Assembly (NCBI RefSeq): GCF_039541235.1
Contig: NZ_BAABFV010000002.1
Span: forward strand, 620,001-684,000
Direction: 5' to 3'
DNA length: 64,000 nt
From: Kangiella marina
GTDB taxonomy: Bacteria; Pseudomonadota; Gammaproteobacteria; Enterobacterales; Kangiellaceae
Shown here: piece after piece, positions 8,272 through 51,117 of the stretch
Position numbering within the stretch: position 1 is the stretch's first letter
How the letters are laid out: every line of letters begins with the position of its first letter
Program-made: the position numbers and the translations under genes
Notes under the pieces: generated by a model
What the model was told of the DNA's origin: nothing
Databases searched by the model: none
The model's input: only the letters and a program-made list of their open reading frames with translations

Positions 8272-8982
8272 GTGCGCGCAAAGGTATTAAGTTTTGTTCA
8301 GATGAAGGGCGGGGCTGGTAAAACCACCTTATGTACCAATATCGCATCGACTTTGTCCGACTCCGGTAAAGTTCTGATGATTGATACGGATGTCCCTCAG
8401 TGCTCTTTGCAAACATGGTTTGATATTCGAAATGAAAACTATGTTATTGAAAATCTTAATGTTTTAGTTGCAAAAAACGTTGCCCACCTTCAAAAACTGG
8501 TCCGTGATAATGTCAATGATTACGACTATATCCTTATTGACGGTCACCCTAGAATTACTAACCTTACCCGTGCCGTTATCATGCTTTCCGATATGGTGTT
8601 AATTCCAATGGCACCGTCTAAAGTTGAGGTGTGGTCCACAAAGCACTTGGCTGACATCATTAATGAAGCGAAACAACAGCATAAGAACTTAGAAGCACGC
8701 ATTTGCTGGAACCGTTATCGAGTGAGGACTAATTCAGCTGAAGATGTCGTTGCTGTGGCTAAAAAAGAGCTTGGTTTGGATGACTTTCAGACGAAGTTAG
8801 GTAATCGTGTAGCCTACTTAGACTCTTTTGCAGATGGTTTGACGGTTGCCGAATGGCACGATCCTGCTGCAAAACTTGAAATCTGGGCGCTAACCTCAAG
8901 CATTGAACGCTTGTTGGCTTCGCAAAAATCGAACCGGATGAAGACAGAAGCCCAAGTTGATAAGTTTGTTAAATCAAAATAA
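8272..8982 (+). CDS. Orphan ParA/MinD-family ATPase
   Basis: A 236-residue P-loop ATPase of the ParA superfamily. The deviant Walker A motif KGGAGKTT (residues 12-19, signature Lys12) lies near the N-terminus, followed by MIDTDVPQCSLQTW and the Walker B-like YDYILIDGHPR. The GTG start is supported by AAGGAG 7 bases upstream. The protein lacks the N-terminal DNA-binding extension of large plasmid ParA proteins and no parB follows, so it is not a standard partition pair. Such orphan ATPases often position cellular machines. Being next to pilus genes, it might act on pili, but a separate promoter and a terminator between them argue against tight coupling. The substrate is unknown. Confidence 0.8.
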   Translation: MRAKVLSFVQMKGGAGKTTLCTNIASTLSDSGKVLMIDTDVPQCSLQTWFDIRNENYVIENLNVLVAKNVAHLQKLVRDNVNDYDYILIDGHPRITNLTRAVIMLSDMVLIPMAPSKVEVWSTKHLADIINEAKQQHKNLEARICWNRYRVRTNSAEDVVAVAKKELGLDDFQTKLGNRVAYLDSFADGLTVAEWHDPAAKLEIWALTSSIERLLASQKSNRMKTEAQVDKFVKSK

Positions 8983-8996
8983 GTATGGATTAATGC

Positions 8997-9025
8997 TTGA
9001 CCCAGCATAACAATTGAATTATGTT
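8997..9025 (+). promoter_or_regulatory. Probable promoter of the trpL-aroF-trp operon
   Basis: TTGACC (8997-9002), a 17-base spacer and TATGTT (9020-9025) make a good sigma-70 match. It would start transcription near 9032, almost at the first leader ATG, leaving hardly any 5' untranslated region. A weaker alternative is TTGATA at 8957-8962 with TAAGTA at 8980-8985. A GTTAAC core overlaps the -10 element, but the arms do not match the TrpR operator well. Confidence 0.5.
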
Positions 9026-9032
9026 AACACCC

Positions 9033-9080
9033 ATGAAAACTTTATATGTAAAAAACATTTGGTGGTGGCACGTTACTTAA
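9033..9080 (+). CDS. trpL: First Trp leader peptide (trpL1)
   Basis: A 15-codon reading frame encoding MKTLYVKNIWWWHVT. Three consecutive TGG codons (9060-9068) lie just before a hairpin and an attenuator, the defining arrangement of a ribosome-mediated trp leader. No Shine-Dalgarno sequence is visible, and an in-frame ATG at 9021 could add four residues. The stop codon sits in the loop of the 1:2 hairpin (core 9071-9086), so a ribosome finishing the peptide would cover segment 2 and allow termination, whereas stalling at the Trp codons would free it. Confidence 0.8.
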   Translation: MKTLYVKNIWWWHVT

Positions 9081-9153
9081 GTAGCGGGCTTCTTTGCGTT
9101 TTTTACAAAAGCAAAATAGAATTTCTAAAGCCCGCACTGTGCGGGCTTTTTTT
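9067..9153 (+). terminator. Transcription attenuator 1 of the trp operon
   Basis: Alternative structures are visible. The 1:2 hairpin is CGTTAC (9071-9076) with GTAGCG (9081-9086), extendable to 9067-9090. The 2:3 antiterminator is GCGGGCTT (9084-9091) with AAGCCCGC (9128-9135). The 3:4 terminator is AAAGCCCGCA (9127-9136) with TGCGGGCTTT (9140-9149), followed by T residues to 9153. Segments 2 and 4 share GCGGGCTT, so the structures are mutually exclusive. This is standard ribosome-mediated attenuation in response to charged tRNA-Trp. Confidence 0.8.
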
Positions 9154-9203
9154 ATGCCTAATTTTTTATAACTTTTTGATAGATAAAACCAAGGTAAACG
9201 AAC

Positions 9204-9263
9204 ATGACGATAATCAGCTTAGCTAAAACATCAAGTCAACATCAATGGTGGTGGATCTGCTAG
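9204..9263 (+). CDS. trpL: Second Trp leader peptide (trpL2)
   Basis: A 19-codon frame encoding MTIISLAKTSSQHQWWWIC. It has three consecutive TGG codons (9246-9254) two codons before the stop and a good Shine-Dalgarno element (AAGG at 9191-9194, 9 bases from the ATG). It lies between attenuator 1 and attenuator 2. Apart from the WWW block it shows no close similarity to the first leader, so it is either an old duplication or an independent gain. Confidence 0.87.
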   Translation: MTIISLAKTSSQHQWWWIC

Positions 9264-9317
9264 GGCGGGTTATTGTCTATGAAATATGACAAAACCCGCC
9301 TTCGTGCGGGTTTTTTT
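9264..9317 (+). terminator. Transcription attenuator 2 of the trp operon
   Basis: The antiterminator is GGCGGGTT (9264-9271) with AACCCGCC (9293-9300), extended by TTGTC (9273-9277) with GACAA (9288-9292), about 13 pairs with one bulge. The competing terminator is AAAACCCGC (9291-9299) with GCGGGTTTT (9306-9314), with T residues to 9317. A clear 1:2 hairpin was not found here; masking of segment 2 by the ribosome at the stop codon (9261) may suffice. aroF begins 50 bases further on. Confidence 0.82.
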
Positions 9318-9367
9318 GTGTCTATAAAATTTTGAATTTAAATATTGATATTAAAAGGAAATGAACC

Positions 9368-10402
9368 ATGATTATTATTTTGAAACCAACAGCTACTGAA
9401 GCAGACGCTCAAGAAATCTTAAATCAGATTGAAGAGGCTGGGCTTAAGCCGCTACATATGCCAGGTGTTGAACGGACGGTTATTGGCGCTCTGGGTGATG
9501 AACGTATTTTACAGTCGCTGCACTTCGATAACCATCCTCAGGTTGAGCATTTAAAGCCCGTACTGAGTAAATATAAGTTGGTGAGTCGTGAAATTTATCC
9601 TCATGACACAGTTGTAAATGTTGGTAATACTCCAGTGGGTGGTGATCAATTTACGATTATGGCCGGGCCATGTGCTATCGAGAGCTATGAACAACTACTT
9701 GAAACCGCCAAACAAGTTAAGTCTTCAGGAGCAACCGTTTTGCGTGGCGGAGCTTTTAAGCCACGCACCAGCCCATATTCGTTCCAAGGCTTAGGTGTTG
9801 AAGGACTTAAAATCATGGAGCAGGTCGGTAAAGAAGTTGGTATGGATACGATCACTGAAATCATGGATGTGAATGACTTGGATGATGTTGCTCGTTACAC
9901 CTCGGCTTTCCAAATTGGCGCTCGCAATATGCAGAACTACACTCTTCTTAAAGCTGTCGGTGAAACCAAACATCCGGTGCTGCTAAAAAGAGGTTTGTCA
10001 GCGACTATAGAAGAGTTACTTTTAGCGGCGGAGTATATTGTTGCTACGGGCAATCCTTATGTCATGATTTGCGAACGTGGAATTCGAACCTTTGAGACAG
10101 CCACACGCAATACCTTAGATTTGAATGCTGTTGCTTATATCAAAGAGAAAAGCCACTTGCCGGTTATCGTCGATCCTTCGCACGGTACAGGTGTTAGAAC
10201 TTTAGTCGGTCCTATGGCTAAAGCTGGTGTGGCCTGCGGGGCTGATGGTTTAATCATTGAGTCTCACCGCAATCCTCGCGAATCTGTATCAGACGCAGCA
10301 CAGGCTTTATCGCCAGATGATTTTGCTCAATTAATGCAGCAGCTGATTCCGTTTATCAAAGCGAGCGGTAGAACCTATCAGGAGGCCCTCAATGCAAGTT
10401 AA
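9368..10402 (+). CDS. aroF: 3-deoxy-7-phosphoheptulonate synthase (DAHP synthase, type I beta)
   Basis: A 344-residue enzyme condensing phosphoenolpyruvate and erythrose 4-phosphate, the first step of the shikimate pathway. Residues 1 to about 75 form a ferredoxin-like regulatory domain ([18 protein letters not shown]...). The barrel follows with [39 protein letters not shown] and [10 protein letters not shown], all typical of the AroG/AroF beta subfamily. AAGGAA precedes the start. It is the first structural gene behind both Trp attenuators and overlaps trpE by 11 bases, so expression should follow tryptophan supply. Whether it is also feedback-inhibited cannot be read from the sequence. Confidence 0.95.
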
Positions 10403-11960
10403 TACGTTAACTCGTAAGCTTCCGCTGAGTTTAAGCCCCTTTCAGGTTTACGGCGTCTTAGCCGATAAGGGGCAGATTAAGCATACTGCATTATTAGAAA
10501 CAGCCGAAGCGGGTACTCATCAACACCAAAAAAGCGTCATCATGGTGTCAGCGGCACTCCAAATCAAAGCGCTGGATAATAAGGTGACATTGACGGCTTT
10601 AAACCCAAATGGGCAGGAGCTACTTAAGACAATCAATGAGCTAGAGTCTCTTAACCATTCTTTTGAGGTCATTAAGGGTAGTCATGTAACAGAGTTAACT
10701 CTTACTAAAGCCCAATCCCTTAATGATGAAACTCTGAGACTTTCTCAAACCACGACGGTGTCGGTTCTACAGTACTTGCGGGATCTGCTCAAAAACGATA
10801 GCCATGCTGATAATGATAGCTCGATGCTCATCGGTGCTTTTAGCTATGAGCTGGTGGATCAGTATGAAGACTTGCCTGAGGTCAAGAAAGAGCAAGAAGA
10901 TTACTGCTTTTATGTGGCGGATCAGCTGGTAATACAGCAGCGTGATAGTCAGTCGGCAAAAATCGTGGTTAAAGGCTTTGGAACTAACGCTGATAACACG
11001 GTTCGTTTAGGCGTGGATCTAGAAAGTATTTATGATGTCTTAGTCACTCAGTCGTCTAGTGACCTTCTAAGCTTTAATGATAACCACGAAGCCGCCACTT
11101 TGGCGCTGAATATCTCTGATAATGATTATTATGAGTTTGTCGCATCTGCCAAAAAACGAATTATCAAAGGCGATATCTTTCAGGTGGTACTAGCTAGAAC
11201 ATTTAATGTTACCTGTTCAAATGCTTACAAAGCCTATGGAAAATTACGCTTAACCAATCCTTCACCTTACATGTATTTCATTAATTTTGGTGATAAAGAG
11301 CTTTTTGGCGCCAGTCCTGAGAGCGCCTTAAAAGTTAATCAGCAGCGTGATATCTACCTGTATCCTATAGCCGGTACTCGCAAGCGGGCGATTGATGGTT
11401 GTACAGGTGAGATTAATCATGACCAAGACTCGCGAATTGAGTTTGAACTGCTCGAAGACGAAAAAGAATCTGCAGAGCATATGATGCTGGTCGACTTGGC
11501 ACGGAATGATTTAGCCAAAGTGGTGGTCCCTGGAACGCGCCAAGTTACTCAGTTAAAACAAATCGTAAAGTACTCACACGTTCAACATATGGTTTCGGAA
11601 ATTAAAGGTGTGTTGCAGCCAGGTGTTGATTCCATCATTGCATACCGCGCCTGCGCCAACATGGGAACCTTAACCGGGGCACCAAAGATAAAAGCTATGG
11701 AGATCATTCGCCATCAAGAAGAAGTCGGGCGAGGGTATTATGGTGGAGCCGTTTGTGTTCTAAACGCCAATGATGAATTTGATAGCGCCATTATTATCCG
11801 CTCCGCTGTAGTCGCAGACGGAATGGCCAAAATAACCGCTGGTGCTGGTATTGTGCATGATTCTGAGCCACATTTAGAAGCTTTAGAAACGGTCAATAAA
11901 GCGAAAGCTGTGATTGATGCTTGCCGTTCTCAACCGCCTCAATCGGAGTTACTGTCATGA
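10392..11960 (+). CDS. trpE: Anthranilate synthase component I
   Basis: A 522-residue chorismate-utilising enzyme that makes anthranilate with ammonia delivered by TrpG. An AGGAGG site lies immediately before the ATG, which overlaps the end of aroF. The LLETAE segment near residue 35 corresponds to the tryptophan-binding LLES region of TrpE. The C-terminal catalytic domain contains IKGDIFQVVLAR, GASPESALKV, PIAGTRKRA, DLARNDLAKV and CANMGTLTGAPKIKAM, all expected. The stop overlaps the trpG start as ATGA, suggesting coupled translation of the two subunits. Confidence 0.96.
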   Translation: MQVNTLTRKLPLSLSPFQVYGVLADKGQIKHTALLETAEAGTHQHQKSVIMVSAALQIKALDNKVTLTALNPNGQELLKTINELESLNHSFEVIKGSHVTELTLTKAQSLNDETLRLSQTTTVSVLQYLRDLLKNDSHADNDSSMLIGAFSYELVDQYEDLPEVKKEQEDYCFYVADQLVIQQRDSQSAKIVVKGFGTNADNTVRLGVDLESIYDVLVTQSSSDLLSFNDNHEAATLALNISDNDYYEFVASAKKRIIKGDIFQVVLARTFNVTCSNAYKAYGKLRLTNPSPYMYFINFGDKELFGASPESALKVNQQRDIYLYPIAGTRKRAIDGCTGEINHDQDSRIEFELLEDEKESAEHMMLVDLARNDLAKVVVPGTRQVTQLKQIVKYSHVQHMVSEIKGVLQPGVDSIIAYRACANMGTLTGAPKIKAMEIIRHQEEVGRGYYGGAVCVLNANDEFDSAIIIRSAVVADGMAKITAGAGIVHDSEPHLEALETVNKAKAVIDACRSQPPQSELLS

Positions 11961-12571
11961 AAACATTGCTTATCGATAACTACGATTCGTTTATTTATAA
12001 CCTTAAATATGAACTAGAGCTTGCTGGAGGCGAAGTCATTGTCTGTCGTAATGATATACCTTACAGCGATCTGTTAAAGCTGACCAAGTCGGTCGATGCC
12101 GTGGTTATTTCTCCGGGGCCAGGAACGCCGCGTGAAGCAGGTCACTGCATCAAACTGGTTAAAGAAATTGCCAGTGAGAAGCCTATTTTAGGGGTCTGCC
12201 TTGGCCATCAGGTCATCATTGAAGCATTTGGCGGAAAGGTTGGCACAGCTAAAGAAATCGTTCACGGCAAAGCGGCGACTTTACAGTCTTTTCAGTCTGG
12301 TTTGCTGGATGTGTTGGGGGCAAAGATCACGGTGGCTCGCTACCACTCTCTTGCCGCAATAGAGCTGACCAATGATTTGCGAGTCGATGCTATTACTAGT
12401 GATGATGAAGTTATGGCGATATCACACATTGAGCATCATGTTTTTGGTCTTCAGTTTCATCCAGAAAGTATTATGACTCGTGACGGGACTAAGATTCTGA
12501 ATAACTTTATTGATTTGGCATTAAACAAAAAAATCAAAAAGGAAGGAGTGTCGTATGCTGAATTTGCTTGA
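11957..12571 (+). CDS. trpG: Anthranilate synthase component II (glutamine amidotransferase)
   Basis: A 204-residue class I glutamine amidotransferase. The ATG at 11957 overlaps the trpE stop and begins MKTLLIDNYDSFIYNL, the family's usual N-terminus. The catalytic triad is visible: Cys81 in GVCLGHQ, and the His and Glu of QFHPES. The PGPGTP oxyanion segment is also present. It supplies ammonia to TrpE. It overlaps trpD by 17 bases. It is separate rather than fused to TrpD. The family can also serve PabB, but the position makes the Trp role dominant. Confidence 0.95.
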   Translation: MKTLLIDNYDSFIYNLKYELELAGGEVIVCRNDIPYSDLLKLTKSVDAVVISPGPGTPREAGHCIKLVKEIASEKPILGVCLGHQVIIEAFGGKVGTAKEIVHGKAATLQSFQSGLLDVLGAKITVARYHSLAAIELTNDLRVDAITSDDEVMAISHIEHHVFGLQFHPESIMTRDGTKILNNFIDLALNKKIKKEGVSYAEFA

Positions 12572-13562
12572 GAATGTGTATCAAGGTCAGCACCTGAACT
12601 TTGAGCAGGCTAGCATGTCTTTCCGACAAGTATTGCAGGGTGATATAGAACTACCTGTCGTTGCAGCAATGTTAGCGGCACTAAAAACGAAAGGGGAGAC
12701 TGTTGAAGAGATTGCTGGCGCTGCCGCAGCTTTGCGTCAGGAAGCTCAATACTTCCCTCCATGCGAATACTCAGTTAGCGATTGTTGTGGTACCGGCGGC
12801 GATGGGTTGAACACAATTAATGTATCTACCCTAGTAGCGATTGTAGCTGCGTGTGCAGGCGTTAAAATTGTCAAGCATGGTAATCGCTCTGTATCTTCAA
12901 AGTGTGGCTCTGCGGACCTGATGGAGCAGCTCGGTGTCAAAATTGATTTGGATGCTGCCACAAGTAAAGCGTTGCTTGATGATGCAAACTTTTGCTTTTT
13001 GTACGCGCCCGATTATCACCAAGGAGTAAGGCATGTGATGCCAGTTAGACGCTCACTGAAAACCCGTACTATTTTCAACTTGATTGGCCCTCTGGCAAAC
13101 CCCGCCTTACCTGATACCCAGTTGCTTGGCGTGTATGATGAGCAGTATTTGGAGCCGTTTGCAAAGATTCTAGATTTACTGGGTACTAAGAGAGCTTTGA
13201 TTGTTCATGGCTCGGGCTTGGATGAAATTGCAGTCCACGGTCCAACCAAAGCCGTATCATTGAATCATGGTGTGATAGAAAGCTTTGAGCTTACGCCAGA
13301 AGACTTTTCAGCTAAGCGCCATGATTTAGCGGCGATTCAAGTGTCTGAAGGCGTCGATAATGTTACGGCGGCTCTTCAGCTTTTGAGTGGTGACGCGCCA
13401 GAAGCCCATGTTGATATGGTTGCGGTTAATTGCTCCGCACTATTAGTGCTTAATGGTCTCGCGCAAGACTTTAAAGAAGGTTACACCAAGGCAAAACACA
13501 TTATTCAAAGTGGTCAAGGCTTGAGTCATCTGAATACAATTAAGGAGCTATCAAATGGTTAA
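12555..13562 (+). CDS. trpD: Anthranilate phosphoribosyltransferase
   Basis: A 335-residue enzyme that transfers phosphoribose from PRPP to anthranilate. The signature DCCGTGGDGLNTINVST and the KHGNRSVSSKCGSADLMEQLG segment form the PRPP and anthranilate sites; RRSLKTRTIFNLIGPLANP is also typical. The start lies inside the end of trpG, preceded by GGAAGGAGTG. It overlaps trpCF by 8 bases. Length is normal for the family. Confidence 0.96.
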   Translation: MLNLLENVYQGQHLNFEQASMSFRQVLQGDIELPVVAAMLAALKTKGETVEEIAGAAAALRQEAQYFPPCEYSVSDCCGTGGDGLNTINVSTLVAIVAACAGVKIVKHGNRSVSSKCGSADLMEQLGVKIDLDAATSKALLDDANFCFLYAPDYHQGVRHVMPVRRSLKTRTIFNLIGPLANPALPDTQLLGVYDEQYLEPFAKILDLLGTKRALIVHGSGLDEIAVHGPTKAVSLNHGVIESFELTPEDFSAKRHDLAAIQVSEGVDNVTAALQLLSGDAPEAHVDMVAVNCSALLVLNGLAQDFKEGYTKAKHIIQSGQGLSHLNTIKELSNG

Positions 13563-14946
13563 TGTGTTACAAGCCATTGTGGAGCATCGCCGTGAAACTC
13601 TAGCTAATAGCCCTGACGTGACTGGCTTAGTGCCTAGCGTCAAAAGTTTTTATGATGCGCTGAAGCAGCCTCACTTTGGTTTTATTATGGAATGCAAGAT
13701 GGCATCGCCCTCAAAAGGTTTGATTCGAGAGGATTTCAACCTTGAACAGATTGTGCCAATTTATAATCAGTATGCTGATGCCATTTCAGTCCTCACGGAA
13801 GACCGTTTTTTTCGCGGCAGTTACGCAAACCTAAAGTATGTCAGCGAGCATACGGATAAACCCGTTTTATGCAAAGACTTTATCTTAGAGCCTAAGCAGG
13901 TTCGACAGGCACGATTTTATGGCGCTGATGCGATTTTATTAATGCTTTCAGTACTTAATGACCATGAATATAAGGCTTGCCAAAAAGAAGCGGAAAAATA
14001 TGATCTCGATATTTTAACGGAAATCCATGACGAAAAAGAACTTGAGCGAGCCTTACAACTCGGTGCAAAAATCATTGGCGTTAATAACCGCAACCTTAAA
14101 GATTTAAGCATTGACCTGAGTCATACGGCGCGTTTAGTGGGGCGAATTCCTAGTGAAACAGTGGTAGTGACTGAGTCTGGTATTTCGACTCATGACGATG
14201 TGTTGACGCTTTCGCCGCTTGCTGACGCTTGTTTAGTTGGTAGTAGCTTAATGAGTCAGCGCGATTTAGATCGTGCGGCAAAACAGTTAGTGTATGGCGA
14301 TATTAAAATTTGCGGTGTTAAAGACCAGTCGGCTGCCAATATCGTTAAAGAAATGCCTGCGTCTACATTGGGTGTGATTTTTGCTGAGAAGTCTCCACGG
14401 AAAGTCAGTGAGAAAGTGGCTACAAAGCAGCCGCTAGTCGGTGTTTTTCAAAACCACTCAACCGAGCAAGTCAAAAGCTTTGTTGAGCAATATGATTTGT
14501 CAGGAGTTCAATTGCATGGTGATGAGTCTGTGGAGTATGTTGAGGAATTAAAGCCACTGTTACCAGAAAGCTGCTTTGTATCGAAAGTGGTTTCTGTTCA
14601 GGCCGGAGCTAGTCTTCCGGTTATACCTGAGTATGCCGTGGATGAAATTTTGCTGGATACTCAGGTGGGTAGCGTCAAGGGGGGAACCGGAGAAACCTTT
14701 GATTGGTCGATAATTTCGCAGTTAAAGGAACAGTACCCCCAGTTCAAGTTTCGTATCGCTGGTGGCGTTACACCTGATAATATTGGTGAGCTCAAGTCAC
14801 GCGGAGTAAGTGCTATTGATGTCTGTGGTGGCACTGAGGATTCTCCCGGCGTTAAGTCACCGCAAAAAATAAAGCAGCTCTTTGCGAATGCTAGAGCAAT
14901 ATCTGGACGAAGCCGTCATAACGGCAGTCAGCCAGAAACGGTATAG
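13555..14946 (+). CDS. trpCF: Bifunctional indole-3-glycerol phosphate synthase / phosphoribosylanthranilate isomerase
   Basis: A 463-residue fusion of two TIM barrels that catalyse consecutive steps from phosphoribosylanthranilate to indole-glycerol phosphate. Residues 1 to about 250 are TrpC (FIMECKMASPSKGLI, LCKDFILEPKQVRQAR, IIGVNNRNLKDLSIDL, VTESGISTHDDV). From about 253 TrpF follows (IKICGVKDQSAA, VGVFQNHS, GVQLHGDES, GGTGETFDW, RIAGGVTPDN). The fusion is the enterobacterial-type order. The gene overlaps trpD and is followed by trpB after 9 bases. Confidence 0.96.
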   Translation: MVNVLQAIVEHRRETLANSPDVTGLVPSVKSFYDALKQPHFGFIMECKMASPSKGLIREDFNLEQIVPIYNQYADAISVLTEDRFFRGSYANLKYVSEHTDKPVLCKDFILEPKQVRQARFYGADAILLMLSVLNDHEYKACQKEAEKYDLDILTEIHDEKELERALQLGAKIIGVNNRNLKDLSIDLSHTARLVGRIPSETVVVTESGISTHDDVLTLSPLADACLVGSSLMSQRDLDRAAKQLVYGDIKICGVKDQSAANIVKEMPASTLGVIFAEKSPRKVSEKVATKQPLVGVFQNHSTEQVKSFVEQYDLSGVQLHGDESVEYVEELKPLLPESCFVSKVVSVQAGASLPVIPEYAVDEILLDTQVGSVKGGTGETFDWSIISQLKEQYPQFKFRIAGGVTPDNIGELKSRGVSAIDVCGGTEDSPGVKSPQKIKQLFANARAISGRSRHNGSQPETV

Positions 14947-14955
14947 AGGTTTACG

Positions 14956-16173
14956 ATGTCATTAAAAGAGAATGAGTCAACACAGTTTGAATATAACGGT
15001 GCCTACATAGGGCAGTATGGGGGACAGTTTGTTCCACAGATTTTAGTTCCAGCGTTAGAGCAGTTAGAACAAGCTTTTGAAAGTGCGATTACTGATGAGG
15101 CGTTTTTAGATGAGCTGAATCAGCTTTTGAGTAACTATGCCGGAAGGCCGACACCGCTGACCGAATGTAAAACTTTTGGCCGAACTGAAAACTGCCGAGT
15201 TTTCCTAAAGCGCGAAGATTTATTGCATGGTGGTGCACACAAAACCAATCAAGTGTTAGCACAAGCTTTATTGGCAAAAAGGATGGGTAAGACACGAATC
15301 ATTGCTGAAACTGGAGCCGGTCAACATGGCGTAGCGACAGCGCTTGCCTGTGCGCTACTCGGTCTTAAAGTGACGGTTTACATGGGCAAGAAAGATTGTG
15401 ACCGCCAAGCCCCAAACGTTTTCAGAATGCGCTTGATGGGTGCCGAGGTGATTCCTGTGGATAACGGCAGCGCGAGTTTAAAAGATGCAATCAATGAAGC
15501 CTTGAGAGACTGGGCGGCGAGTTATGATGATACCCACTATTTGCTGGGGACAGCCGCGGGACCACACCCTTTTCCAAAAATGGTGAAGCGCTTTCAGCAA
15601 GTGATTGGCGAGGAAGCTAAAAAGCAAATGCTAGAGCAAACCGGGCAACTGCCGGATGCGGTTATTGCTTGTGTCGGTGGAGGCTCTAACGCGATTGGTA
15701 TTTTCGCTGACTTCATCAAAGATAAGCAGGTTAAGTTGATTGGTGTCGAGCCGGCAGGACATGGCTTGGATTCGGATGCCCATGGTGCAACCTTGTTAAG
15801 AGGTACCGAAGGTATTATTCATGGCTCCAGAACGCATATTCTGCAAACCGAGGAAGGGCAAATTCGTGAGTCTCACTCGGTGTCTGCTGGACTGGATTAC
15901 CCTGCAGTGGGTCCTGAGCATGTGCACCTTATGACTAGTGGGCGAGCGGAGTACGTTGGAATTACGGATGAGGAAGCGTTGCAGGCGTTTCAGGATTTAT
16001 CGCACGCAGAGGGAATTATCCCAGCACTGGAATCGTCGCATGCTTTGGCGTATGCGAAAAAATTAAGTGAGGAAATGACCAAGCCCACGGTGTTATTGGT
16101 AAACCTGTCGGGGCGTGGTGATAAAGATTTAAGTCACGTCATGAGTATTTTAGAGCAGGGTAAAGAGGCCTAG
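14956..16173 (+). CDS. trpB: Tryptophan synthase beta subunit
   Basis: A 405-residue PLP enzyme joining indole and serine. The PLP Schiff-base lysine is Lys96 in HGGAHKTNQ. The motifs [26 protein letters not shown] and LSGRGDKDL are all intact. The N-terminal [14 protein letters not shown] is typical of TrpB1. It works as an alpha2-beta2 complex with TrpA, whose gene starts within 15 bases of the stop. Confidence 0.97.
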
Positions 16174-16186
16174 CATGGGAGCGAAT

Positions 16187-17008
16187 ATGCGTTATCAAAA
16201 TATGTTCAATAAAGTGTCTTCCAGTAATCATCTGGCTTACATCCCGTTTGTTATTGTTGGTGATCCTAACGAAGAACTGTCGCTGCAAATTATTGATCAG
16301 CTGGTTGAAAATGGTGCTGATGGGTTAGAGCTAGGTTTGGCCTTTTCAGATCCTGTGGCTGATGGACCTGTCATCCAGCAGGCTGCTCTGAGGCCGTTGG
16401 CAAATCATTTTTCGATCAAATCAGGTTTAAGCCTAATCGGTAAAGTTCGAGCTAAATACCCAGAGTTACCCATTGGCTTGTTAACTTATGCCAATTTGGT
16501 CTTTGCACAAGGCATTGAAAGCTTCTTTAATCAATGCCATGAGGTCGGTATCGACTCAGTGCTAGTGGCAGACTGCCCGGTGAAAGAGTCGCAGTTATTC
16601 GCTGCTAAAGCTGATGCATGCGGTGTACAGCTGGTTTTTATTGCCCCGCCAGATGCGAGTGATGACACGTTACGCCAGATTGCTGAGCATAGTAAAGGCT
16701 ACACCTATGTACTCAGCCGAAAAGGCATTACCGGTACTGAAGTGGCGGCAACTCAAGCAAAAACCGACTTCTTAGGTAAGTTAAAAGCCTTTAATAGTCC
16801 GCCGTTGGTACAAGGTTTCGGTATTTCAGAGCCGAAACACGTATTTGATGCGGCGAATGCTGGCGTCGATGGAATTATTACCGGCTCAGCCATAGTTAAC
16901 TTGATCAATCAACATTATAATAGCCCTCAAATCATGCTAGAGCAGATTGGCGACTATGTACGATCAATTGCTCAAGCTGCACACACAGACCACGCCAACA
17001 CAGCTTAG
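16187..17008 (+). CDS. trpA: Tryptophan synthase alpha subunit
   Basis: A 273-residue TIM-barrel lyase that cleaves indole-glycerol phosphate and channels indole to TrpB. The catalytic Glu lies in GLELGLAFSDPVADGP and the second acid in VLVADCPVKES; the phosphate site is QGFGISEPKH plus ITGSAIV. I chose the ATG at 16187, giving MRYQNMF like other TrpA N-termini, with GGGAG 5 bases upstream; ATG at 16175 would add four residues and is possible. It is followed by the yfcL-like gene after 41 bases with no terminator. Confidence 0.94.
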   Translation: MRYQNMFNKVSSSNHLAYIPFVIVGDPNEELSLQIIDQLVENGADGLELGLAFSDPVADGPVIQQAALRPLANHFSIKSGLSLIGKVRAKYPELPIGLLTYANLVFAQGIESFFNQCHEVGIDSVLVADCPVKESQLFAAKADACGVQLVFIAPPDASDDTLRQIAEHSKGYTYVLSRKGITGTEVAATQAKTDFLGKLKAFNSPPLVQGFGISEPKHVFDAANAGVDGIITGSAIVNLINQHYNSPQIMLEQIGDYVRSIAQAAHTDHANTA

Positions 17009-50403: not shown

Positions 50404-51117
50404 ATGTCTTTGCTAAATGAATCTTGGGTTGAGCAGGTCAACCAAAAGTTAGGGCACTCTAGTGCGCAGGAGCGAATTGAGTATGCTCTGCAACACTTGC
50501 CCGATAACTTTGCCCTAGCATCAAGTTTTGGTGCCCAGTCTGCAGTCAGTTTACATCTACTGACGCAGGCTAAACCTGACATTTCTGTGATTTTGGTCGA
50601 TACCGGCTATCTGTTTGCAGAAACTTATCAGTTTGTTGATGAGCTAGTCGAACGGTTGGACTTAAACTTGAAGGTCTATAGAAGTCAGCTAAGTCCAGCT
50701 TGGCAAGAGGCTCGTTATGGTAAGGAGTGGGAAAAGGGTAAGCAGGGAATTGTAGCTTACAATCAGCGCAATAAAGTTGAGCCTATGGAGCGAGCTCTTG
50801 ATGAGTTGGGCGTTAGCACTTGGTTTTCTGGGCTGCGCCGCCAGCAATCTCAGTCCAGAAATCAGCTACCAGTAGTACAGGCGTTTAAAGGGCGTATCAA
50901 GGTCCACCCGATTATCGACTGGAGCAATAAAGACATTCACCAGTACCTAAAAAAACACCGACTCCCGTATCATCCTCTATGGGACAGAGGCTATGTCTCG
51001 ATTGGTGATACACACAGCACAACGCCCATCACCGAGGACATGTCAGAAGAGGATACTCGTTTTGGTGGCCTAGTTCGTGAGTGTGGGTTACATGTCGATA
51101 CGCTGTCAGGTCTTTAA
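50404..51117 (+). CDS. cysH: Phosphoadenosine phosphosulfate reductase
   Basis: A 237-residue enzyme reducing PAPS to sulfite with thioredoxin. [15 protein letters not shown] is the PP-motif of the PAPS fold, [17 protein letters not shown] and [13 protein letters not shown] are conserved, and the active cysteine is in VRECGLHVD. It lacks the extra cysteine pairs of plant-type APS reductases with an iron-sulfur cluster, so PAPS is the likely substrate. TGGAG lies five bases before the ATG. It completes the cysJIH operon; cysDNC are not in the window. Confidence 0.94.

Follow-up and report, generated by a model that had tools for sequence, protein, structure and literature searches.

Two predicted tryptophan attenuators in series upstream of the aroF-trp operon of Kangiella marina

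Does RNA polymerase have to pass two attenuators that read the same signal before it reaches the aroF-trp operon of Kangiella marina, and if so, what could the second one add? The question is raised by a stretch of 64,000 nucleotides (positions 620,001 to 684,000 of contig NZ_BAABFV010000002.1; the window in the following), in which the initial annotation had noted two short reading frames with Trp blocks, 9033-9080 and 9204-9263, each followed by its own antiterminator and terminator. Translation, predicted folds and conservation in relatives confirm both frames and their paired structures. Judged by sequence comparison, the doubled Trp leader and attenuator is real and conserved, and we consider it likely, with a probability of about 0.85, that the leader comprises two complete ribosome-mediated, Trp-sensing transcription attenuators in series. 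The serial arrangement that the annotation had claimed is thus supported, and the present analysis adds that leader 1 is probably leaderless, that no TrpR was detected and that the doubling extends to several families. Compared with classical trp attenuation, what sets this leader apart is the doubling, a first gate that is probably leaderless and the lack of a detected TrpR.

Architecture of the aroF-trp leader

According to Pfam matches and open reading frames, the leader is followed by an operon of the order aroF-trpEGD(CF)BA, with fused trpC and trpF, in this Kangiella-type genome. Upstream, a gene for a ParA/MipZ-like ATPase (Pfam), on the same strand, ends at 8982. The features of the region are collected in Table 1. 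Both units contain a putative leader, that is a short reading frame with consecutive Trp codons upstream of the trp genes, and in both of them antiterminator and intrinsic terminator exclude each other, as seen in the predicted folds and in the pairing kept by relatives. On both strands of 8800-9500, five terminator-like sites were found, against 0.5 expected from shuffles; the three further ones are the minus-strand reading of terminator 2 and two small hairpins after the Trp blocks. TGGTGG occurs at 49 positions on both strands of the window, and a terminator lies 20-130 nt downstream in five cases, four of them within the two Trp blocks and the fifth a weak site at 51063.

Table 1. Features of the aroF-trp leader region (positions in the window)
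Feature	Position	Strand	Details	Basis
Probable sigma-70 promoter	8997..9025	+	-35 TTGACC 8997-9002, 17-nt spacer, -10 TATGTT 9020-9025	9/12 matches
Leader peptide 1	9033..9080	+	MKTLYVKNIWWWHVT, then stop; Trp codons 9060-9068	Translation; WW/WWW in 20/20 genus genomes
Protector (1:2) hairpin, unit 1	9071..9086	+	CGTTAC-TTAA-GTAGCG; stop codon at loop; overlaps antiterminator arm	
Antiterminator 5' arm, unit 1	9084..9091	+	GCGGGCTT; partner AAGCCCGC 9128-9135	Fold; conservation
Intrinsic terminator 1 with U tract	9127..9153	+	Stem 9127-9149	Fold z -4.3
Weak Shine-Dalgarno-like AAGG before leader 2	9191..9194	+		Anti-Shine-Dalgarno pairing: -3.9 kcal/mol (leader 1: +0.4)
Leader peptide 2	9204..9263	+	MTIISLAKTSSQHQWWWIC, then stop; Trp codons 9246-9254	Translation; WW/WWW in 20/20 genus genomes
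Possible 1:2 hairpin, unit 2	9254..9271	+	GATCTGC-TAGG-GCGGGTT	Conservation in relatives unclear by eye (alignment)
Antiterminator 5' arm, unit 2	9264..9271	+	GGCGGGTT, immediately 3' of stop codon; partner AACCCGCC 9293-9300	
Intrinsic terminator 2 with U tract	9291..9317	+	Stem 9291-9314	Fold z -3.5
aroF, DAHP synthase, first operon gene	9368..10402	+		PF00793 E 3.6e-78, PF18152 E 2.6e-18
trpE, trpG, trpD, trpCF fusion, trpB, trpA	10392..17008	+	Order as given	ORFs, Pfam

The unit 1 segment, folded alone, prefers the terminator, and the antiterminator is the alternative fold once the terminator 3' arm is omitted. Unit 2 folded alone has the antiterminator as its minimum-energy form, even when the terminator 3' arm is included. 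Across 20 genomes of the genus, the six pairs of the unit 1 protector hairpin are formed in 100% of 120 cells, with one pair changed on both sides in one genome; in L012 the hairpin is retained although the stop codon of leader 1 is lost. The six pairs of the unit 1 antiterminator core are likewise kept in 100% of 120 cells. No covariation was found in the unit 1 antiterminator arms of these 20 genomes; covariation is thin because the antiterminator arms are nearly invariant in the genus. For unit 2, 13 of the 20 genus genomes could be aligned. Its extended antiterminator stem is paired in 94.6% of 167 cells, with no two-sided change and with shuffles scoring equally, and one terminator 2 pair is changed from G-C to A-U on both sides in 5 of the 13 genomes, which exceeds all 500 shuffles. 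In family genomes outside the genus, the core has changed jointly on all three arms (e.g. GACGGG/CCCGTC/GACGGG in L023, AACGGG/CCCGTT/AACGGG in L029).

The distance from the first Trp codon to the antiterminator arm is 16-35 nt (median 21, SD 3.9) over 84 units, a set that includes a few poor arms (e.g. L111, L113, L120). Within the genus it is 20-24 nt in unit 1 and 16-19 nt in unit 2. In contrast, the distance from the first Trp codon to the stop varies from 12 to 60 nt (SD 12.6), and the arm begins upstream of the stop in 37 of the 84 units. It is therefore the position of a ribosome on the Trp codons, and not the stop, that appears to be held constant, which is what a stalled-ribosome switch requires.

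The Rfam Trp_leader model (RF00513) matches the two units separately, unit 1 with 34.8 bits (E 1.7e-5) and unit 2 with 25.7 bits (E 0.0044), both below the gathering score of 41 bits, which is a criterion of model fit rather than of mechanism. Unit 2 matches Leu_leader nearly equally well (24.9 bits, E 0.0052), and the same search of the leader region listed 27 matches with E values of up to 1. When the K. marina genome was searched with RF00513, unit 2 was not among the matches listed, which include three other places in the genome. Over 274 genomes of the class, no RF00513 match was above the gathering threshold, and 212 genomes had matches at E up to 1. T-box matches were found neither in the window at gathering level nor in 8950-9400 at E up to 1.

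The annotation had also noted that the GC-rich stem cores differ, GCCCGC against ACCCGC. Such a difference occurs in 5 of the 20 genus genomes, but in the other 15 both units carry GCCCGC (counting L010, where the unit 1 core is GCTCGC), and insulation of the gates by unlike cores was rejected as a general rule. The leader could be imagined as one folded device, in which the 5' arm of terminator 2 is captured by antiterminator arm 1 or by the 3' arm freed from terminator 1, so that passing gate 1 licenses gate 2. In 39 genomes the cores are largely interchangeable, and the mean duplex energies of these cross pairings are -13.4 kcal/mol for antiterminator arm 1 and -14.1 kcal/mol for the terminator 1 arm, compared to -14.7 kcal/mol for the antiterminator 2 arm with terminator 2, which makes such pairing energetically feasible in many relatives. 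In the window, however, the two cross pairings reach only -10.4 and -10.2 kcal/mol, in the same order, versus -17.1 kcal/mol, and the local partners would be expected to find each other first during transcription. A single folded device is thus unlikely, and we continue with two separate gates.

Transcription start and initiation at the two leaders

In the alignment of all 20 genus genomes, leader 1 is preceded by TTGAC(C/G), a 17-nt spacer and TAnnnT, which ends 6-7 nt before the ATG; the final base of the -35 box is G in L006 and C otherwise. From this short distance, a sigma-70 promoter would be predicted to initiate at the A of the ATG or some one base upstream of it, at about 9032-9033. 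With such a start, leader 1 would be translated from a 5'-terminal AUG, and we conclude that it is probably leaderless. A second in-frame ATG at 9021 falls within the probable -10 box.

Leader 1 has no clear Shine-Dalgarno sequence in the window (Table 1). The mean anti-Shine-Dalgarno pairing in the genus is -0.2 kcal/mol for leader 1, versus -1.9 kcal/mol for leader 2 and -3.8 to -6.3 kcal/mol for aroF. Pairing of -2.4 kcal/mol or lower is found for leader 2 in 14 of the 20 genus genomes, and for leader 1 in only three.

The score of the promoter in a single genome is unexceptional, as a median of 17% of shuffles reach it; what stands out is its conservation only. A strict test called for at least 5/6 matches in the -35 box, TAnnnT, at least 8/12 matches in total, a spacer of 16-18 nt and an end 5-9 nt before an in-frame ATG. 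Leader 1 passes in 20/20 genus genomes and 8/15 other family genomes, and in families of the same order in 3/3 genomes of f14, 1/1 of f4, 0/1 of f13 and 1/5 of f15, the last count being affected by L024, which was tested at the wrong frame. Among control ATGs in the same regions, 1/406 passes, and so do none of 100 first trp leaders of other lineages (out of 115 genomes; L224 was tested at the wrong ORF).

The predicted RNA 9033-9153, a leaderless mini-mRNA of about 120 nt, resembles rnTrpL of Sinorhizobium meliloti and could act in trans. It is conceivable that unit 1 mainly yields such an RNA, a peptide, or both, and that attenuation is left to unit 2. In S. meliloti, the RNA produced by trp attenuation has its 5' end at the trpL ATG and is active in trans, according to the portion of the source considered here (PMC7298713), and the Trp-His-Val-Thr end of leader 1 is well conserved in the genus. 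However, the 1:2 hairpin and the stop fall on this same stretch, so that its conservation is accounted for at the RNA level, and unit 1 holds the parts of a cis switch. We consider it quite unlikely that a trans-acting product is the main output of unit 1, and retain the reading of unit 1 as the first of two serial attenuators.

Distribution among relatives and relation to TrpR

The sequence upstream of aroF was examined in 36 genomes of the family, 20 from the genus and 16 others. All 20 genus genomes have both units, with WW or WWW blocks, in keeping with the annotation, for which the case depended on conservation of both frames and stems in close relatives. Outside the genus, both units are present in 11 of the 16 family genomes. 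Among the exceptions, L021 and L115 have kept terminator 2 with leader 2 reduced to a single Trp, and in L111 and L116 one unit was found. In L117 (genome G029), 237 nt upstream of aroF, a stop precedes the two Trp codons and the terminator remains; its leader frame may be a decaying unit.

The five exceptions, with a unit missing, reduced to a single Trp or stopped before its Trp codons, would fit the idea that only one switch is live and that the other unit is the remnant of a tandem duplication. Pairwise comparison of leader 2 among L001-L008 (8 of the 20 genus genomes) gives 266 nonsynonymous and 37 synonymous codon differences, and the frame drifts outside the Trp run. The Trp runs persist, and despite this change each unit retains its Trp block and its terminator in 20/20 genus genomes, which makes a remnant very unlikely.

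Most improbable is an internal promoter between the units, whose unit-2-only transcript would make the gates alternative rather than serial: in 19 of the 20 genus genomes, loose scans of the single genome turn up weak promoter matches ahead of leader 2, but the spacer between the units is poorly conserved in the genus alignment, the best score in these 20 genomes is at shuffle level (a median of 81% of shuffles reach it) and the strict test, though covering only 5-9 nt before the ATG, gives 0/40 for leader 2. The candidate was rejected on these three grounds, and no conserved promoter that bypasses leader 1 was found between the units. Two attenuators in series thus remain the preferred reading.

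Other families of the same order share the arrangement. Both units are present in 9/9 aroF-led operons examined in f4, f14 and f15, and at the f13 locus (L134) two WWW leaders are accompanied by two terminators, the second leader being longer than the limit set for leader frames. Photobacterium, Enterovibrio, Veronia and Salinivibrio have one Trp leader each (10 loci, L033-L041 and L043). In 115 genomes of other families, examined at trpE or aroF, two full units were not found, with L224 (f20) set aside; it was scored as double because of the tail of an upstream gene and was discounted by eye. The counts leave out L203 (149 bases), L154 and L163 (aroF precedes trpE), L255 (same genome as L206) and G031 and G048 (aroF at a contig edge).

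In a class-wide search for aroF, matches at E <= 1e-95 came from 20 of the 274 genomes, among them that of K. marina. Of the 19 others, 18 were examined (19 loci; the partial match L269 was left out). Apart from L266, none of 17 class genomes has two Trp units within 650 nt upstream of aroF, and two have one, L267 and, with WYW, L268. L266, from outside the order, has a Trp-Arg-Trp leader and a terminator about 75-145 nt upstream of aroF (about 226 nt examined), and a WWW leader with a terminator between aroF and the next ORF. One apparent operon thus carries a pair of Trp units with a gene between them.

Other kinds of leader frame were seen in the order. Seven f7 loci (L121, L122, L125, L128, L181, L187 and L189) have a second Trp-rich ORF of the type MLTTKVKSWFIWWLQPIYAG shortly before aroF or trpE, and no terminator was found downstream of this ORF. 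Pairwise comparison of the seven genomes gives 117 synonymous and 67 nonsynonymous codon differences, and the ORF looks conserved as a peptide, unlike leader 2 of Kangiella, and may perhaps be an arrest peptide that controls aroF or trpE. In f11, f12 and f25 (e.g. L204, L209, L234), a normal first attenuator is followed by a Trp-Arg-Trp ORF near trpE, with no terminator detected, and translational control is a possible role for it; in genome G070 of f11 this ORF seems, by eye, to have decayed. In L119 (f23), a Phe/Tyr-rich leader frame (MNLSHQYFYFFGWFCSHSG...) begins 150 nt before aroF and is followed by a single terminator, a possible attenuator of the Phe/Tyr type.

TrpR (Pfam PF01371) is above the cut-off in none of 40 family genomes, five of which have weak matches below it, and has a match in 125 of 295 genomes of the order. 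A search by name in 80 genomes (that of f13, the nine from f4, f14 and f15 with two units, and the 70 TrpR-less genomes considered below) found none. As a result, TrpR is found in 0/40 genomes with two full units, and two full units are found in 0/45 TrpR-bearing genomes with a trp leader examined; since the genomes are related, these counts do not represent independent events. A second Trp ORF without a terminator occurs in 31 of the 70 TrpR-less genomes and in 3 of the 45 TrpR-bearing ones, all of them from f11, where three of four TrpR-bearing genomes (G220, G238, G290) have it. The rule that two Trp leaders occur only where TrpR is absent is thereby weakened: it holds for full units and fails for the second-ORF type in f11. 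In f3, f9, f16, f20 and part of f7, the TrpR-less genomes examined have a single leader. The absence of TrpR is thus common to all full doubles examined, yet it is insufficient for doubling. Its presence need not imply control of trp either, since the trp operon of Shewanella is not controlled by TrpR, as stated in the part of the source considered (PMC5343134).

Serial gating and related systems

The two units suggest the following sequence of events. RNA polymerase would start at about 9032-9033. When charged tRNA-Trp runs short, a ribosome translating leader 1 would stall on the Trp codons of this leader, the arm at 9084 would be free to pair with the 5' arm of terminator 1, and polymerase would pass gate 1. 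Without a stall, terminator 1 would form and transcription would be expected to end. The choice would then be repeated at gate 2, where another ribosome would initiate at an internal AUG with a weak Shine-Dalgarno sequence, and aroF would be reached only by transcripts that have passed both gates. As the gates are serial, repression should be multiplied and the response should be steeper, provided that they are independent; the sensitivity on a logarithmic scale would then be doubled. In a toy model with parameters of our own choice, in the style of the model in PMC1183508, as far as the accessible part describes it, read-through at the same codon rate was 0.14 for one gate and 0.019 for two.

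Escherichia coli trpL (RF00513) likewise has consecutive Trp codons and an antiterminator that excludes an intrinsic terminator before the trp genes, but it is one unit. Its leader is Shine-Dalgarno-led, whereas the first of the two leaders is probably leaderless here, and no TrpR was detected. The E. coli trp operon is additionally repressed by TrpR, as stated in the part of the source considered (PMC5343134). TrpR would give E. coli the range and steepness that we ascribe to the second gate, and in view of the lack of a detectable TrpR, the second gate probably supplies added dynamic range and steepness.

Leaderless Trp leaders and doubled leader frames have each been described, and the following comparisons draw on parts of the respective sources. 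The 5' end of S. meliloti trpLE(G) lies at the trpL ATG, so that the leader is leaderless, as is probable for leader 1, and there is no repression of the operon at the level of transcription; the system is described as one attenuator, unlike the Kangiella pair (PMC7298713). Its rnTrpL RNA and peTrpL peptide are trans-acting. In Streptomyces lividans, trpL1 precedes trpE and is likewise a leaderless frame for a Trp leader peptide that contains WWW, but it is single, and trpL2 lies elsewhere, before trpS (PMC8079986). In the Salmonella mgtCBR leader mRNA, as in that of Kangiella, each of two leader ORFs (mgtM and mgtP) governs downstream transcription. However, mgtCBR senses two signals, ATP and proline, and its stem-loops are unlike intrinsic terminators, whereas the Kangiella units share the same codon block and have two intrinsic terminators (PMC3641672). 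The Kangiella units thus do not belong to the mgtCBR class, which is marked by different signals and by the lack of intrinsic terminators. In the part considered of a survey of Shewanella cis-acting RNAs, Trp_leader is placed before trpE and the word "tandem" does not occur (PMC2659441).

Searches of open-access literature listed no doubled trp attenuator with the same signal; beyond the papers covered, a prior description would most likely be found in Panina et al. 2001 or in Vitreschak et al. 2004.

We tentatively propose, as a possibility that goes well beyond the serial arrangement itself, that the leader is a two-stage cascade for one signal, read by ribosomes that initiate differently, on a leaderless 5' AUG and at an internal site. 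Such a cascade might integrate the supply of charged tRNA-Trp, sensed at both gates, with the status of the initiation machinery (IF2/IF3, 70S loading); it might also replace TrpR in several families of the order. Among the genomes examined, the full doubles are confined to those without detectable TrpR, which suggests that a second RNA gate can replace a repressor. The doubled serial brake may make the Trp switch much sharper. The conserved doubling of a textbook RNA switch would offer a natural test of the benefit of a second stage, and a probably leaderless gate beside an internally initiated one would provide a built-in comparison of the two modes of initiation under the same signal.
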